Virus record (IMG/VR): IMGVR_UViG_3300034082_000817
Coordinates: 1-27,727 of that record
Direction: 5' to 3' (one strand)
Source of the DNA: a virus
DNA: 27,727 bases
Shown here: positions 5,096 through 26,437 of the stretch, one piece after another
How positions within the stretch are numbered: the first letter of the stretch is position 1
Layout: each line of letters begins with the position of its first letter
Notes under the pieces: generated by a model
What the model was told of the DNA's origin: nothing
Databases searched by the model: none
Seen by the model: only the letters and a program-made list of their open reading frames with translations
Position numbers and translations under genes: made by a program

Positions 5096-5464
5096 CTATT
5101 TTAAATAGTGAGATGGATGTATTTGCGAATGTCCAGTAATAGCAGATGTTTTTGCTTTTCTTTGTGGACCAGTTTTTCTTTTAGAATAATCAGTACCATC
5201 AGGATATACAATTTCTATTCCTGCGTTACGACAATTTATTTGCCAAATGAATGACAATAACTGTACGACATCAAATTCAAAATCAAGATCAGTAACAGCA
5301 CTAACTCTTGTATCGTGATTTGTATACTCATATTTAAAATGAGTAACTATACCGTAATTTTTATTACCAGCACTTATTTCAGTACCGAGCAATTCCAATT
5401 CTTGTTTAGATAACAATGAATTATCGGATGCGATATCGGATGCGATATCAGATGAATTAGACAT
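5096..5464 (-). CDS. First gene of left-arm cluster, hypothetical (122 aa)
   Basis: The start is ATG 5464 (MSNSSDIASD): GAAAGG stands nine bases before it, whereas the alternative TTG at 5470 would have only three bases of spacing. A 12-base tandem repeat near the 5' end encodes SDIASDIASD. The C-terminal tail is basic (YSKRKTGPQRKAKTSAITGH) and may contact nucleic acid. It is the first gene downstream of the control region, so it is probably strongly and early expressed. No family is recognised. Confidence 0.6.
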   Translation of the reverse strand: MSNSSDIASDIASDNSLLSKQELELLGTEISAGNKNYGIVTHFKYEYTNHDTRVSAVTDLDFEFDVVQLLSFIWQINCRNAGIEIVYPDGTDYSKRKTGPQRKAKTSAITGHSQIHPSHYLK

Positions 5465-5515
5465 AATCAATTTCCTTTCAGATAGAGATAAAGATATGAT
5501 ATATTATACTATTTA

Positions 5516-5569
5516 TTAGAATATGTTTATTCCAATAACAATGCTAATATCTGTCCAAAGATCGGGCAT
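5516..5569 (-). CDS. Possible leaderless 17-aa leader ORF
   Basis: An ATG at 5569 lies exactly seven bases after the -10 box of the promoter at 5577-5605, so the transcript could begin at or next to the start codon. The frame encodes MPDLWTDISIVIGINIF and stops at 5516. Leaderless initiation is common in actinobacteria. The peptide is hydrophobic, and the 5464 gene lies about 50 bases further on, so it could act as a leader peptide. The evidence is positional only; such a short frame could be chance. Confidence 0.25.
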   Translation of the reverse strand: MPDLWTDISIVIGINIF

Positions 5570-5576
5570 TAGATAC

Positions 5577-5605
5577 ACACTATCACAGTCTAATTGCTAA
5601 GTCAA
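5577..5605 (-). promoter_or_regulatory. Sigma70-like promoter for the left-arm cluster
   Basis: On the minus strand TTGACT (5605-5600) is followed after 17 bases by TAGTGT (5582-5577), with a TGa extended -10 directly before it. This is the best promoter match I found in the window. Transcription would start near 5570 and run into the genes at 5464 and beyond. Confidence 0.65.
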
Positions 5606-5661
5606 GTCACACGCTAAAAAGTATTTATTGATAGGGGTAATAGATCTTAGGGAATGTTTTA

Positions 5662-5699
5662 GCTAACATTTTAGGTAACATCTTAGCTAAAATGTTAGC
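5662..5699 (-). repeat. Perfect 13-bp inverted repeat (stem-loop)
   Basis: GCTAACATTTTAG at 5662-5674 is exactly complementary to CTAAAATGTTAGC at 5687-5699, with a 12-base loop. No U-run follows on either strand, so it is not a standard terminator. It lies downstream of the 5803-5831 promoter and would be present in that transcript. It could be an RNA structure, a protein-binding site or a replication-related hairpin. Confidence 0.6.
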
Positions 5700-5802
5700 G
5701 ATCACAGATCGGGGTATATAGCGAACAACATAGTGCTTGATATAGTTTGCAATATAGCATATGTTGCGCCAACGCATTTGAATGTAATATAGAGAAAACT
5801 TG

Positions 5803-5831
5803 AGTATACATTTTTGCTCAAGACATAACAA
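5803..5831 (-). promoter_or_regulatory. Sigma70-like promoter with repeated -10 motif
   Basis: TTGTTA (5831-5826) and TATACT (5808-5803) are separated by 17 bases on the minus strand. The -10 and its upstream A-tract are part of a 13-base sequence repeated at 5892-5904. The core AGTATACAT recurs at 6774-6782, where it precedes a gene. A transcript from here would cover the 5662-5699 hairpin. Confidence 0.5.
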
Positions 5832-5891
5832 ATTCTAAAAATAATAATATAGGTACTGCGCCTATGTTTATGTTTATATTTATAGAAATTT

Positions 5892-5904
5892 AGTATACAT
5901 TTTT
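5892..5904 (-). repeat. Second copy of the AGTATACATTTTT motif
   Basis: It is identical over 13 bases to 5803-5815. On the minus strand it presents the -10-like TATACT preceded by AAAAATG, but no convincing -35 is seen 16-18 bases upstream. It may be a weaker promoter or a regulator binding site. Confidence 0.4.
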
Positions 5905-5948
5905 TGAGGATACAAGCTTCTAGATTTTTTTACGAATGTCTAACCGAT

Positions 5949-6767
5949 TTACGGTTTATCAACGATCTTAGCATTCTCTTCAATAAAGGACATCATTGTT
6001 CCAGTATATTTCATACGACCAAGATGACCTAAAGTAATAGCAGGATCTACCCAAACTTTCCCACCTATATTTTGCCAATATCTACAGAAGCCATAGTCCT
6101 CAGATAAGAATCTATTTTTATGGGCATCAATATAAGAATTAAAAAATGCATATGTCCAAGGCTTTTCATTTTTAGCAAGAGAGCCAGTATCATCATCATA
6201 CTTTAATTCAGGGTGAGCTTCTATAAGCTTTAAAAATGTCTCTCTTTTTATGAGCATAAAGCCAGTACCAGCATCAAATATTTCAATTGCCCCATTTTCA
6301 ACATTTAAAGTAGTTTGATCTTTAACTGGATTAACAACAAATCTAACACTCTTGGCTGCAAGATCTTCAACAGCAACTCCATCTTTTACATTCTTAGCTA
6401 CTTTTTCCCAATCAATTGATTTAATAGGATAAGCAGCAGTCATTACTTCTTTATCATGCCATAGCAATTTTATGATATCTTCAGGCTCCCAGGATATATC
6501 TGCATCAATAAACATCATATGAGTAAATTGCTCATTACCCATAAATTTAGCCGACATATTATTCCTAGCACGATTAATCAATGAATCAGTAATAGTTGCT
6601 ACTGCAAACTTCATGCTATGATCTCTAAAATACATTAGAGTTTTAATTAGACTCATCATTGTTGGTTCTGATATTTGCTGATCGTAACAGGGAATGGCAA
6701 AAAGAACATTCCATTTTGCTAATTGATCAGATGAGATTTCTATTGATTGTGTTTCAAAAAGTGCCAT
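5949..6767 (-). CDS. GT-A glycosyltransferase-like protein (272 aa)
   Basis: The segment FTHMMFIDADISW (residues 81-93) has the DxD metal/nucleotide-sugar site (DAD 88-90) typical of GT-A enzymes. It follows a Rossmann-like start, VLFAIPCYDQQIS (21-33). Later blocks IFDAGTGFMLIKRETF (163-178) and LSEDYGFCRYWQ (221-232) fit the acceptor side and catalytic base (E223/D224) of phage GT2-like proteins. I start at ATG 6767 (MALFETQ): the longer ATG at 6782 sits on the terminator's T-run, and TATACT stands six bases before 6767, so the message may be leaderless. No Shine-Dalgarno is present at either start. Substrate is unknown. Confidence 0.75.
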   Translation of the reverse strand: MALFETQSIEISSDQLAKWNVLFAIPCYDQQISEPTMMSLIKTLMYFRDHSMKFAVATITDSLINRARNNMSAKFMGNEQFTHMMFIDADISWEPEDIIKLLWHDKEVMTAAYPIKSIDWEKVAKNVKDGVAVEDLAAKSVRFVVNPVKDQTTLNVENGAIEIFDAGTGFMLIKRETFLKLIEAHPELKYDDDTGSLAKNEKPWTYAFFNSYIDAHKNRFLSEDYGFCRYWQNIGGKVWVDPAITLGHLGRMKYTGTMMSFIEENAKIVDKP

Positions 6768-6773
6768 GCCTAT

Positions 6774-6779
6774 AGTATA
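6774..6779 (-). promoter_or_regulatory. Leaderless-type -10 element before the GT-A gene
   Basis: TATACT (6779-6774) is followed by ATAGGC and then the ATG at 6767, which places the expected +1 on or beside the start codon. It shares AGTATACAT with the two motifs in the 5.8-5.9 kb region. The -35 region is occupied by the terminator hairpin and matches poorly. Confidence 0.45.
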
Positions 6780-6782
6780 CAT

Positions 6783-7176: not shown

Positions 7177-7285
7177 TATATGCTCCTGTTTTCTTTGGTT
7201 TGGGTTATGCCGTTTGGCTTGACATTAAGTTATCAGACAAAAATGCCAGTTGCAACCATTTGGGCGTTTTTTATTTAAAAATGTT

Positions 7286-7426
7286 TTAAGATTTTTTAAG
7301 TAGGCTTTCAATTTGTGCAGACAAAACTGCATTCTGAACTACCAATTCAGCTATCTTTGCAGCAAGGTTTTGCACAATCTTGTTGACATCAACAGGATTA
7401 TCATTTGCTATATATTCTCCATCCAT
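7286..7426 (-). CDS. Small coiled-coil protein downstream of terL (46 aa)
   Basis: A 46-codon frame starts MDGEYIANDN and continues with a helix, VNKIVQNLAAKIAELVVQNAV, that has a clear leucine/alanine heptad pattern. AGGAGGTG, one of the strongest ribosome sites in the window, lies five bases before the ATG, inside the end of terL. The gene overlaps terL by 19 bases. The arrangement strongly supports expression. It may be a small structural or packaging accessory protein; no homology is recognised. Confidence 0.65.
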   Translation of the reverse strand: MDGEYIANDNPVDVNKIVQNLAAKIAELVVQNAVLSAQIESLLKKS

Positions 7427-9141: not shown

Positions 9142-9175
9142 TACTTAGAGAATTTCCCTAGGGCGACAAAAAGCG

Positions 9176-9277
9176 GTCTCAAATTCTGAGACAAAAAATG
9201 CAACGCCGCCAAAAAACCGTCTCAAATTATGAGACAAAAATGCAATGGCGAAATTAATCGGTCTCAAATTCTGAGTC
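9176..9277. repeat. Three palindromic iterons between terS and terL
   Basis: Three copies of GTCTCAAATTCTGAGAC or a one-base variant lie at 9176-9192, 9219-9235 and 9261-9277, spaced 43 and 42 bases apart. The arms GTCTCA/TGAGAC are perfect in the first two; the third has TGAGTC and lies inside the end of the upstream gene. In copies 1 and 2 the repeat continues with an A-tract and TGCAA. Repeated sites next to a small terminase gene are typical of pac or cos recognition, so terminase binding is the leading guess. An operator is the alternative. Confidence 0.7.
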
Positions 9278-9862: not shown

Positions 9863-10884
9863 AATCTATCTACATAGTCCTTTGTTACTTTGTCCCAAGT
9901 CATATTCTCATTTATGTACTTAGCACCTTCTAGTGTCTTATTTGAGACATCATCATAGTTTTTAACTACATATAACATTTTATCACACAAATCATCAAAA
10001 CTTGGCTCTGCCCACTCTCCAGTATCTTTGTATACACCATCCATGTTCTTTCTAGACCATTTGTAATCTAGAGGTACAGACATTTCTGCATACTCTTCAC
10101 AGGCAGTAGCGTTAGTGCAGATCGTTGGAATACCTTTTGCTATCGCTTGGAATGGTATCAACCCCCATCCTTCGCCACTTGTTGGGTACAGTAGACAGTC
10201 TGCTTCATCGTATAGTGCAGAAAGGAGGCTTTCACTTAACTTCCAATCTATAACTTCAATACGAGGATGCCCGTGAATAGATGACTGATCGCTCGTACCT
10301 TTATGAAAACGAGCGTCTGGGGGTCCATTAGATTTGTAAATGAGTTTATAATTTTCATCACGACCAAAAAGATGCATGAATGCATCAACAGACATTTGAG
10401 AATTCTTCCTCGTTGAAGGAGATCCCATGCTTAAAAATGTAAACGGCTTATGAGGTTTCCTTTTATAAGGAAAGTAAAGATCTGGATTAACACCCAGATT
10501 GAAAGCGTACACTGGCTTAGTCACACCAGAGTTTATAAATACATTTTTCATAAACTCAGATGTAGTCCAAATCTCATCCATCTGGTTCATTCCGTCAACG
10601 CTGTCATCGCTTATACGATTGGTTTCCCAATATGTAAAGCCAATTGAATACTTGGAACCAATAACATAATATTCAGGTAGTGTATTATTAATAACAACAG
10701 GATTAGTAAACTTAGTATTCCTTAACGAATACCCAACTCCAGGAATTTCTGGAGCAAGATGCTCAACATATGTCTTGGAGACCAATCCATTTTTGGATAG
10801 CGCTTCGTATATAGGGTAGGCAGCATCAGCGTACCCAGTGCCCGCTACATGGGAGCCTGCGTCATTCCACTCTACTTCACTCAT
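9826..10884 (-). CDS. GT4-family glycosyltransferase (352 aa)
   Basis: This is a GT-B-fold sugar transferase. The C-terminal donor domain begins at FTFLSMGSPSTRKNSQMSVD (148-167) and carries LLYPTSGEGWGLIPFQAIAKG (231-251), the nucleotide-sugar site of GT4 retaining enzymes. The usual E-x7-E motif reads E238-x7-Q246 here. The N-terminal domain contains the acceptor region and FTYWETNRISDD (83-94). No signal or membrane segment is seen, so it should act in the cytoplasm. It overlaps the YkgJ-like gene upstream by eight bases. The acceptor could be virion protein, phage DNA or cell-envelope glycan; sequence does not decide. Confidence 0.85.
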   Translation of the reverse strand: MSEVEWNDAGSHVAGTGYADAAYPIYEALSKNGLVSKTYVEHLAPEIPGVGYSLRNTKFTNPVVINNTLPEYYVIGSKYSIGFTYWETNRISDDSVDGMNQMDEIWTTSEFMKNVFINSGVTKPVYAFNLGVNPDLYFPYKRKPHKPFTFLSMGSPSTRKNSQMSVDAFMHLFGRDENYKLIYKSNGPPDARFHKGTSDQSSIHGHPRIEVIDWKLSESLLSALYDEADCLLYPTSGEGWGLIPFQAIAKGIPTICTNATACEEYAEMSVPLDYKWSRKNMDGVYKDTGEWAEPSFDDLCDKMLYVVKNYDDVSNKTLEGAKYINENMTWDKVTKDYVDRLCQILNMLNKKA

Positions 10885-11632
10885 CTACAGAAAAAGCAAT
10901 TTTCTTTCCTGCGTTTTCGGCAGCTGATCTTAATTTAGGTAATGGCAGACCGTGAACTTTTGTATATTCAACTCTGTAATTGTACCAACCTTCAACCGCT
11001 CGCCAAATGCTTGGGTCGGTAGTATCCGCTAGCTCTTGAAGATCTTCCGTTGTTAAGAGAAAACTTAAAACACCCAAAGGCATATACACAACAACATCGT
11101 AATTTTCACCTTTGTCTTTTGAATACTTTTCCAATACATCTTGATATTGGCGAACCATGCCTTCAACTGGCGTACCAGAGAAGAAATCAACATTGCCATA
11201 AATGTTTCTTTCCCGAGGGCACACATCATCAACTCCAACAAATGCTCCGTAGCTTCTGCAAACTAATGGTCTAAAACCATAAATAGTACAACCACCTTTA
11301 TAGAAAGCGCACTTGCGAGTTGTTTCACCTCCAAATTTGAGATCTTTATCATGCATTGCATCTTTTAAGGAATCAGTAACAGACTTAAACCATTCATTAG
11401 CATAATCATGACCTTTATCTTCTAAATATAGATAAAATTGCTGGGTCAAATTAAAAGCAATGTTTGCGCATTCCGCCATCGGGATTGTTAATCCAATAGT
11501 GCAGCAATGCCCAGAGCCCAGACATTTATACCTAGTCTTGTTCTGGTTTGCCTCAATTACCCGAGCCTGGTTATATACAATATTCAACTCAGCGAATAAA
11601 CCTAAATCTTCTGCCGTAATACTTCTTTGCAT
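10877..11632 (-). CDS. YkgJ-family cysteine-cluster protein (251 aa)
   Basis: CLGSGHCCTIG (37-47), C55, C108, GCTIYGFRPLVCRSYG (114-129) and DVCPRE (136-141) reproduce the CxxxxxCC...C...CxIYxxRPxxCRxY pattern of the YkgJ (PF03692) family. These proteins are thought to bind an Fe-S or zinc cluster, and some are linked to oxidoreductase or modification chemistry. The rest is helical, without a second catalytic domain. It lies directly upstream of a glycosyltransferase (eight-base overlap), which suggests a shared pathway. The family call is firm. The reaction is unknown. Confidence 0.8.
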   Translation of the reverse strand: MQRSITAEDLGLFAELNIVYNQARVIEANQNKTRYKCLGSGHCCTIGLTIPMAECANIAFNLTQQFYLYLEDKGHDYANEWFKSVTDSLKDAMHDKDLKFGGETTRKCAFYKGGCTIYGFRPLVCRSYGAFVGVDDVCPRERNIYGNVDFFSGTPVEGMVRQYQDVLEKYSKDKGENYDVVVYMPLGVLSFLLTTEDLQELADTTDPSIWRAVEGWYNYRVEYTKVHGLPLPKLRSAAENAGKKIAFSVDE

Positions 11633-11925
11633 TATCTACCCATACCTTTCTTCTGAATGTCTCGTTGCTTTCTTAATTCACGCTTCCTACGCTCAGCTGC
11701 TTGCTGCATAGGTGATTTTGGTTTCTTAGAAGTTACAGCAAGGTTTCTGCCTTTACCTCTAAATTTTAATAAATCATATTTTTTGCACCAGTTATACAAA
11801 CCTTGCGGTGATATTTCAACATTGTAAGTTTGCTTTAATAACTTACAAACATCGGTTAAGTTCATTCTCTTCTTGACATAGTGCTCGTACAGCCAAGACT
11901 TATCTTTGTACGGCTCAAGAGCCAT
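11632..11925 (-). CDS. HTH DNA-binding protein (97 aa)
   Basis: Residues 10-53 read as a homeodomain-like or resolvase-type HTH: WLYEHYVKKRMNLTDVCKLL, a turn, then ISPQGLYNWCKKYDLL as the recognition helix. The tail (54-97) is very basic (GKGRNLAV..., RRKRELRKQRD), adding nonspecific DNA affinity. It starts inside the RuvC gene (11-base overlap) and ends on the next start codon (TAATG). It could be a transcriptional regulator or a replication or packaging accessory factor. There is no catalytic domain. Confidence 0.7.
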   Translation of the reverse strand: MALEPYKDKSWLYEHYVKKRMNLTDVCKLLKQTYNVEISPQGLYNWCKKYDLLKFRGKGRNLAVTSKKPKSPMQQAAERRKRELRKQRDIQKKGMGR

Positions 11926-25262: not shown

Positions 25263-25564
25263 TACGACTCCAATCTTTTCTTCGTTTCTTGGACAATGGA
25301 TTTAAATTTATCATTAGATTTCTTATCAAACTCTGCTTTATCAACAAAATTTCTTGATTCTATTGCAAAATCAAATATCAAAAATGGACCAGTTCTATTT
25401 TTGATAAAATATTCTATCCCAGTAGAGAGGTTATCTGTTTTATAAAACTTAGATAAAGCATCTGCTACCGCCTCTTGTCTAGGAGAATCTGGAATAAATA
25501 ACTTACTGTGCTTTTCGCAACAGCTTTTGAAGAAGTCTATCAGTTCTTGACCAGTTGTTATCAT
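25262..25564 (-). CDS. Small protein upstream of helicase, possible loader (100 aa)
   Basis: A helical protein with ELIDFFKSCCEKHSKLFI (7-24), IEYFIKNRTGPFLIFDFAIE (50-69) and a charged tail ending KKRLES. I do not recognise a family. It lies directly before the DnaB-like helicase with a one-base TAATG overlap, the place where helicase loaders are often encoded, so that role is a guess. It overlaps the WhiB gene by 62 bases, and its own ribosome site is weak, so it probably depends on translation of WhiB. Confidence 0.55.
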   Translation of the reverse strand: MITTGQELIDFFKSCCEKHSKLFIPDSPRQEAVADALSKFYKTDNLSTGIEYFIKNRTGPFLIFDFAIESRNFVDKAEFDKKSNDKFKSIVQETKKRLES

Positions 25565-25793
25565 TTTCTTTTTTTGCTTTCTTCCATGTTTCTAATAAAA
25601 TATCATACTCGGAGAAACCGCCATTTACGCCATAAGCAGGATTTGATTCCCACATATTTAATAGACATTCTTTTCTTACTGTACAGGATTTGCAAACATT
25701 TTTGGCATACTGAACATCGCTGTACTTATAGGAAAACCAATATTCACCATTGGCATCTATTGCGCAAAGGGCTAGGTCTCGCCAAGATGTCAA
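25503..25793 (-). CDS. WhiB-like [4Fe-4S] transcription regulator (96 aa)
   Basis: C10, C34, C37 and C43 (LCAIDANG...VCKSCTVRKEC) form the WhiB iron-sulfur ligand set, and NPAYGVNGGFSEYD (51-64) corresponds to the GV/IWGG turn (here GVNGG). The C-terminal tail is basic (KKAKKEN...RLLQKLLRKAQ), as expected for DNA contact. WhiB proteins are restricted to actinobacteria and their phages; mycobacteriophage TM4 WhiB inhibits host WhiB2 and blocks superinfection. Start is TTG 25793, the only option near the first Cys, immediately after the previous stop. This is the best host marker in the window. Confidence 0.88.
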   Translation of the reverse strand: MTSWRDLALCAIDANGEYWFSYKYSDVQYAKNVCKSCTVRKECLLNMWESNPAYGVNGGFSEYDILLETWKKAKKENDNNWSRTDRLLQKLLRKAQ

Positions 25794-26002: not shown

Positions 26003-26437
26003 TTATCTCTTTCCTAGTTTTATTTTTTGGGATATTCTAATTACTCTTGCTTGTGCTTGCCCAGTAGTAACTGGTCTCCCTGGGGTTCTCCCACTGAAGA
26101 ATGTTACCATATCATAGACATCTTGTCTTTCATAGTAGCGCCAACTTTTGTAACTTTCACAAGTTTGGCTGAATTTCTTTCCACTTGGTATCAACTCTCG
26201 TTTTTCATATTTACGAATAGTATCGGGTCTTTTTTCAACAATCTTAGCTACTTCACCAATGGTATAAATTCTGTGCATAATTAACTCAGCACCTTCATAC
26301 GGCATGATAATTTCTTCTTTTGTCGTTAAATCAATAACATAAATTTTATTAAGATTTTTTGTTATTTTTTTAATCTTTACAATTGTATCTGAATACTTGT
26401 AAAATTTATTTAAAATTATTTTCGTCTGCAAATTCAT
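26003..26437 (-). CDS. MerR-like HTH regulator with N-terminal extension (144 aa)
   Basis: RIYTIGEVAKIVEKRPDTIRKYEKRELIPSG (56-86) followed by SWRYYERQDVYDMVTFF (98-114) is a winged helix of the MerR/excisionase type, with the second helix contacting DNA. Before it, residues 1-53 are strand-rich and may be an SH3-like domain, which is unusual since MerR HTHs normally begin the protein. The C-terminal tail is short and basic, with no long dimerising coil. AGAGGA precedes the ATG at 26437. It may regulate this operon or act on DNA architecture. Confidence 0.75.
   Translation of the reverse strand: MNLQTKIILNKFYKYSDTIVKIKKITKNLNKIYVIDLTTKEEIIMPYEGAELIMHRIYTIGEVAKIVEKRPDTIRKYEKRELIPSGKKFSQTCESYKSWRYYERQDVYDMVTFFSGRTPGRPVTTGQAQARVIRISQKIKLGKR

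Follow-up and report, generated by a model that had tools for sequence, protein, structure and literature searches.

What is the function of the 478-nt gap that lies between a glycosyltransferase-like gene and a small gene, here called gene X, in a viral genome whose genes are otherwise closely packed? The window, meaning the whole stretch of 27,727 bases that was analysed, is a virus record with a G+C content of 36%, and its minus strand carries nearly all of the genes. An initial sequence-only reading had described the genome as gapless apart from this locus, which was slightly overstated, as further gaps were found at 7177-7407 and 9142-9253. A 42-nt tandem repeat of 2.6 copies was also observed upstream of the terminase gene (9164-9275); each unit holds the palindrome GTCTCAAATTCTGAGAC, followed by a U-run on the minus strand, and similar motifs occur in two relatives (G001 near 10855 and G008 near 45151). 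Family searches showed that the window encodes a terminase and a WhiB-like protein, and inspection of the translations added a DnaE-type polymerase, a DnaB-type helicase and a primase. MerR-like (26003-26437) and HTH (11632-11925) genes are present besides the WhiB-like gene (25503-25793). The best terminase relatives, at about 42% identity, belong to Streptomyces phages of the Stanwilliamsviridae; therefore, the virus is likely to be an actinobacterial phage and its host an actinobacterium.

We fetched related loci using the glycosyltransferase-like gene as the anchor and obtained 73 viral loci, all of them on metagenomic contigs. The gene order, the gap and gene X were kept in most of the 73. 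At least 22 lineages share one layout, namely the gene, a sequence box M1, usually a second box M2, a periodic stretch, a promoter P3 and gene X (Table 1). When a collection of phages was searched with the region, no DNA match was found. The sequence-only reading had proposed a control or switch region, and the relatives support this proposal well: position and design are conserved between the same two genes, the -10 element of P3 is conserved, and the DNA is non-coding.

Table 1 Features of the gap and its flanking genes, with positions in the window
Feature	Positions	Strand	Remarks
Glycosyltransferase-like gene	5949..6782	-	phrog_1574, weak Anp1; upstream of gap
Gap between genes	5471-5948	read on minus strand	478 nt; glycosyltransferase-like gene to gene X
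Box M1, AAAAAATGTATACTAAATTTC	5885..5905	-	every lineage examined, 28 distinct sites
Short conserved block after M1, GGCGCAGTACC (family CGGGTAGTTC)	5852..5862	-	22-lineage alignment
Box M2, CAAAAATGTATACTCAAGTTT	5796..5816	-	second copy, 89 nt from M1
Short conserved block after M2, GCGTTGGCGCAA (family CCGTTCCCGCAA)	5764..5775	-	22-lineage alignment
Degenerate 12-nt tandem array, ATATGCTATATT ... TTAGCTAAGATG TTACCTAAAATG TTAGCTAAAACA TTCCCTAAGATC	5643..5762	-	10 units
Perfect 13-bp stem, GCTAACATTTTAG / CTAAAATGTTAGC	5662..5699		12-nt loop; neighbouring 12-nt units
Promoter P3, TTGACT (5605-5600), TAGTGT (5582-5577)	5577..5605	-	17-nt spacer
5'UTR of X with second 12-nt periodicity	5477..5576	-	out of phase; z 10.6 at lag 12, 12 clades
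Possible leaderless mini-ORF, MPDLWTDISIVIGINIF	5516..5569	-	start 7 nt past P3 -10
GAAAGG ribosome-binding site and ATG of X	5462..5479	-
Gene X	5096..5464	-	122 aa, conserved small protein; heads run of small genes

Promoter-like matches were no more frequent than expected by chance (16 against 17.6 expected, and 26 against 27.8 in a second scan), and their meaning must therefore come from the relatives. Tandem promoters had been proposed for the gap. Both matches are present, but the spacing of the upstream one, TTGTTA-17-TATACT at 5831-5803, is inconstant in relatives, and this half of the proposal was not sustained. The P3 -10, in contrast, was recognisable in all 22 lineages checked, as the types GATAG-CT, GATAAACT and GATACAAT, the positions of P3 in relatives being set from such visible -10 motifs. 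A TTGAC or TGGAC -35 was seen in about half of the lineages. The distance from P3 to X is mostly 77-114 nt, with 130 in L067 and 219-233 in the L054, L058 and L062 lineages. P3 conforms to a sigma-70/sigma-A promoter in that its hexamers are 17 nt apart, inside the expected 16-18 nt, and recur at this place in relatives. Taken from these comparisons, TTGACT-17-TAGTGT is the best-supported candidate promoter of the region. A start codon 5-7 nt past the -10 was seen by eye in roughly 8 of 13 clades, and the peptide of the mini-ORF is not conserved; a leaderless mini-ORF directly after P3 is suggestive only. In the 5'UTR of X in L054 and L058, a longer ORF (MAIFIVRKLRIKLFVKLAIKLV... and MAILISQKLQIKLVSKL...) runs from the leaderless position through a 12-nt array as a 4-residue repeat.

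The identical 13-mer AAAAATGTATACT at 5803-5815 and 5892-5904 had been reported as a repeated -10 motif. We confirmed the repeat, which arose in only 2 of 200 dinucleotide shuffles of the region. It proved to be the core of a longer element that had escaped the sequence-only reading, the 21-bp box M with the family consensus GAAAAATATATACTCAATTTC. M1 lies about 0-75 nt past the stop codon of the glycosyltransferase-like gene in the lineages examined. Its distance from M2 is 87-89 nt in 18 two-copy lineages and 78 nt in four related ones that form one clade, and M2 is missing from the L004, L022/L026, L066 and L067 types. Over the 28 distinct M1 sites, positions 4-6 (AAA), 12-14 (ACT), 16-17 (AA) and 19 (T) are invariant, and five central positions change by transitions only (YRYRY). 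In a sigma-70-type -10, the second base has to be A and the sixth T, and conservation would be confined to the -10 and -35. Position 2 of the candidate hexamer is G in 4 of the 28 sites, and the strongest conservation (AAA, AA, TT) falls outside the hexamer. The transition-only centre and the G for A in four sites therefore argue that M is better read as a protein-binding site, putatively with a centre that is read by shape, than as a -10.

Matches to M recur through the genomes of the relatives. The window itself has two occurrences of the pattern, where column-shuffled versions gave 0.0, and its 15-position form occurred 15 times in a 109-kb relative, G003 (0.3 column-shuffled), 14 times in G006 and 11 times in G008. 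Across the relatives' genomes, nearly all copies lie on the majority gene strand. Other roles for M were tried and rejected. As a promoter for a T7-like polymerase, M would call for a protein with PF00940, which had no match in ten relatives, although the search control was silent and this absence is weak evidence; PF04542 (sigma-70 region 2), searched for a phage sigma factor, likewise had no match in ten relatives. Looping between M boxes in helical phase was considered for the spacings of 78, 88 and 98 nt, but phasing is not needed because the M spacing in arrays equals the length of one unit made up of M and a hairpin.

The arrays in question consist of cassettes of about 500 bp in five relatives (G001, 34-40 kb; G002, 45-50 kb; G003, 58-62 kb; G006, 61-65 kb; G008, 16-21 kb). 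Each cassette comprises an M pair with an imperfect inverted repeat, a -10, a 5'UTR hairpin (TGTCAAGG..CCTTGACA) adjoining the ribosome-binding site, a small gene and a terminator, and the cassette genes are oriented against the majority strand. In all five genomes, M stands in reverse complement 20-21 nt ahead of each cassette -10, and the second copy is typically 95-99 nt farther upstream, with the imperfect inverted repeat between the copies. The placement of the reverse M is the one that an activator or operator site would have. The M pair of the window is a divergent member of the same family, and M as an antisense promoter in the window was rejected since no -10 stands at the cassette distance on the antisense strand.

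In T4 middle promoters, the MotA box, an activator or operator site, takes the place of the -35. The cassettes resemble this type in that the reverse M has a fixed distance from the -10 without a normally spaced -35. They differ in that the window lacks an antisense -10 at that distance, the sequence is unrelated, and a MotA-like protein was not identified. A cultured member of the Stanwilliamsviridae, the Streptomyces phage LukeCage, also has numerous small genes, many of which carry a promoter of their own (-10 like TTAGACT), a related terminase, and a motif shared upstream of the small genes. However, the motif shared in LukeCage is GCCGCCCCGG...AAAAGATCTTGA, and over the 45 kb that were read M did not exceed controls. 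The sequence ATAACGGTCCTAA, about 95-240 nt downstream of an M box, was observed in five relatives (G001:40323+, G002:50224+, G003:57789-, G005:18335- and G008:16346-), where it sits in a conserved non-coding block of about 200 nt closing the small-gene arrays. It resembles a universally conserved stretch of 23S rRNA, CTATAACGGTCCTAAGGTAGCGAAA, in the region of the I-CeuI site. In G008 the rRNA-like match runs on through TAGCGAAATTCGCTGCC. The block is possibly an rRNA-mimic RNA, a decoy or an attachment site.

Between M2 and P3, the gap contains a degenerate 12-nt tandem pattern that had gone unnoticed, including the fact that the hairpin reported at this place is part of it. In the window, the self-match at lag 12 had z=5.1. 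When 13 clades were combined, z reached 12.1 at lag 12, 6.5 at lag 24 and 3.6 at lag 36, with no other lag above 2.3; these combined values, including those below and in Table 1, are inflated because the clades share ancestry and are not independent tests, and control stretches within the neighbouring gene reached 5.6 at other lags. No other place in the window is as 12-periodic as the array, and the same holds for the records G000, G001, G002 and G009. The periodicity recurs beyond P3 in the 5'UTR of X and again over the opening 66 nt of gene X (combined z 9.3), and the phase is not continuous across P3. In some other intergenic DNA, lag 12 was mildly raised (z up to 3.7), and it was weak at other gene starts. 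Within a genome the units are only about 50% alike, they differ between lineages, and the period persists where the sequences no longer align. In the N-terminal codons of X (5396-5461), the 12-nt repeats encode DIASDIAS, and 4-residue repeats of different sequence (NVDNNVDN) occur in other lineages.

In most close pairs, the adjacent gene changes at least as fast as the array; in L013/L016, the array differs by 7% and the gene by 24%. Substitutions in the array are, in most pairs, flat over the codon positions, whereas the neighbouring gene has a strong third-position excess in all pairs. Slow change without a general codon-position bias therefore points to an array that is constrained and non-coding. 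A 68-aa ORF on the minus strand (5625-5831) could be taken for a small protein gene that explains the region, and it does stay open because the unit length, 12 nt, is divisible by three. No recognisable ribosome-binding site precedes it, and the substitutions that separate the window from L009 are not concentrated on third positions. With no third-position excess in most array pairs, a small protein gene as the explanation of the region is extremely improbable.

The sequence-only reading had further suggested that a structured RNA lies between the two promoters. The perfect 13-bp stem-loop without a U-run at 5662-5699 is present as described, and no 13-bp stem was formed in 200 dinucleotide shuffles (mean longest 7.3, maximum 11). 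Among the relatives, however, only the 96%-identical L009 keeps it. On its sequence, the hairpin is a by-product of TTAGCTAA palindromes in neighbouring 12-nt units. RNAalifold gave 0 pairs for 22 aligned lineages, the folding energy against shuffles had a mean z of -0.85, and Rfam had no match in the region. For a structured RNA in the stretch between M1 and M2, a long-range pairing of CGGGT with CCCGC (ACGGG/CCCGT against GCGGG/CCCGC) seemed promising at first and was also rejected; its right side is near-constant and its left side varies, RNAalifold returned no such pair, and the pairing is broken in L003, L018 and L054. Neither RNAalifold nor comparison by eye supported the short block after M1 as a pairing partner for the next block. 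In one subclade (L013, L016 and L024), folding is better than in shuffles (z -4.6, -2.8 and -2.5), and this subclade could possess an RNA structure of its own. For the family at large, these results leave a riboswitch-like or otherwise structured leader very improbable, in spite of the stem in the window and the fold of the subclade.

The main rival to a protein-bound operator takes the periodic stretch for a Rho-utilisation (rut) region, which would end transcription that arrives from upstream and leave P3 alone to set the level of the X operon. Among the features of rut sites are bubbles of C>G and YC dimers at N9-13 spacing (PMC9160355), and the 12-nt period would then follow from Rho contacts with YC dinucleotides at regular intervals. 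In the array, the sense strand is indeed C-rich and G-poor, with a C/G of 1.36 against 0.67 in the upstream and 0.77 in the other flanking gene, and the regular spacing is within 11-13 nt. In the window, the record has its strongest C>G bubble at this place (top 0.04%), relatives ranking within about the top 0.1-4%, and no intrinsic terminator, the 13-bp hairpin included, was found between 4500 and 7500 of the window. The period, however, is not mainly one of YC: the lag-12 autocorrelation was 0.13 for YC against 0.27 for purine/pyrimidine, with 0.21 for A and 0.23 for T. Furthermore, the periodicity runs past P3 and into the coding sequence of gene X, where a terminator makes little sense. 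We consider termination by Rho unlikely on balance, with some chance left to it.

Two other explanations are less likely possibilities. The 12-bp units may be iterons that seed a filament at a nucleoprotein assembly site for replication origin, partition or packaging-related purposes, with M as an accessory; 12-bp-scale iteron-like arrays adjoin AT-rich DNA, and the 12-periodicity peak is unique or near-unique in several genomes. In parC/ParR, omega repressor parS and tubC/TubR, tandem repeats at a promoter are bound by a small oligomerising repressor (PMC5016525), and the present locus is similar in having short tandem direct repeats whose period is constant before and after a promoter. Typical iterons are nevertheless not as dissimilar as the units found here, neither a binding-protein gene nor a motor gene was found, partition genes were not seen nearby, and a partition function is not expected in a presumably lytic phage. 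A replication origin was rejected since GC skew does not change sign at the locus. An assembly site thus appears doubtful. Still more doubtful is the view that the pattern is a functionless mutational by-product, left by old slippage duplications in a poorly constrained spacer. The occurrence of 12-nt repeats in the variable N-terminus of X, as 4-residue repeats, accords with slippage. On the other hand, the array changes as slowly as the adjacent gene or more slowly in most pairs, and the period outlasts the alignability of the sequence and is weak elsewhere in these genomes.

Taken together, these findings lead us to propose, with a probability of roughly 0.4, that the gap serves as cis-regulatory control region for the operon of small genes headed by X, comprising P3, the M boxes and the 12-bp sites of an oligomerising protein. 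Judging from the conserved -10, a host-type RNA polymerase would start at P3. A phage-encoded or host DNA-binding protein would recognise the paired M boxes, here and at other loci. A second, oligomerising DNA-binding protein would fill the degenerate 12-bp sites on either side of P3 and into the start of X, and the occupancy of these sites would set when the operon is on or off; this step is proposed because the 12-nt period is conserved before and after P3, in stretches of DNA that differ in kind. Gene X itself was tried as a known regulator and rejected: no family matched, no PDB entry was better than E=0.6, and its structure model is modest (pLDDT 69). Several observations speak against the operator. 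The 12-bp spacing does not match the 10.5-bp turn of DNA, M2 is lacking in some lineages, and the C-rich, G-poor sense strand of the array fits Rho as well. A bolder form of the proposal, which we hold to be rather improbable, is that the conserved property is the 12-nt spacing and not the sequence, the array being part of a set of numerous weak, fast-drifting sites, kept in 12-nt register around P3 and into the opening codons of X, for an undescribed oligomerising protein of phage or host that acts alongside a phage-wide M.

If the proposed control region is real, this group of phage lineages would share a regulatory code that combines a genome-wide 21-bp box with a multi-site operator based on register. 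The operator could then drift in sequence while its spacing stays, which would make it a testable case of regulation by spacing. The hosts of the group are probably uncultured aquatic actinobacteria, and the elements described here would serve as bait sequences in the search for regulators of phages without a cultured host.
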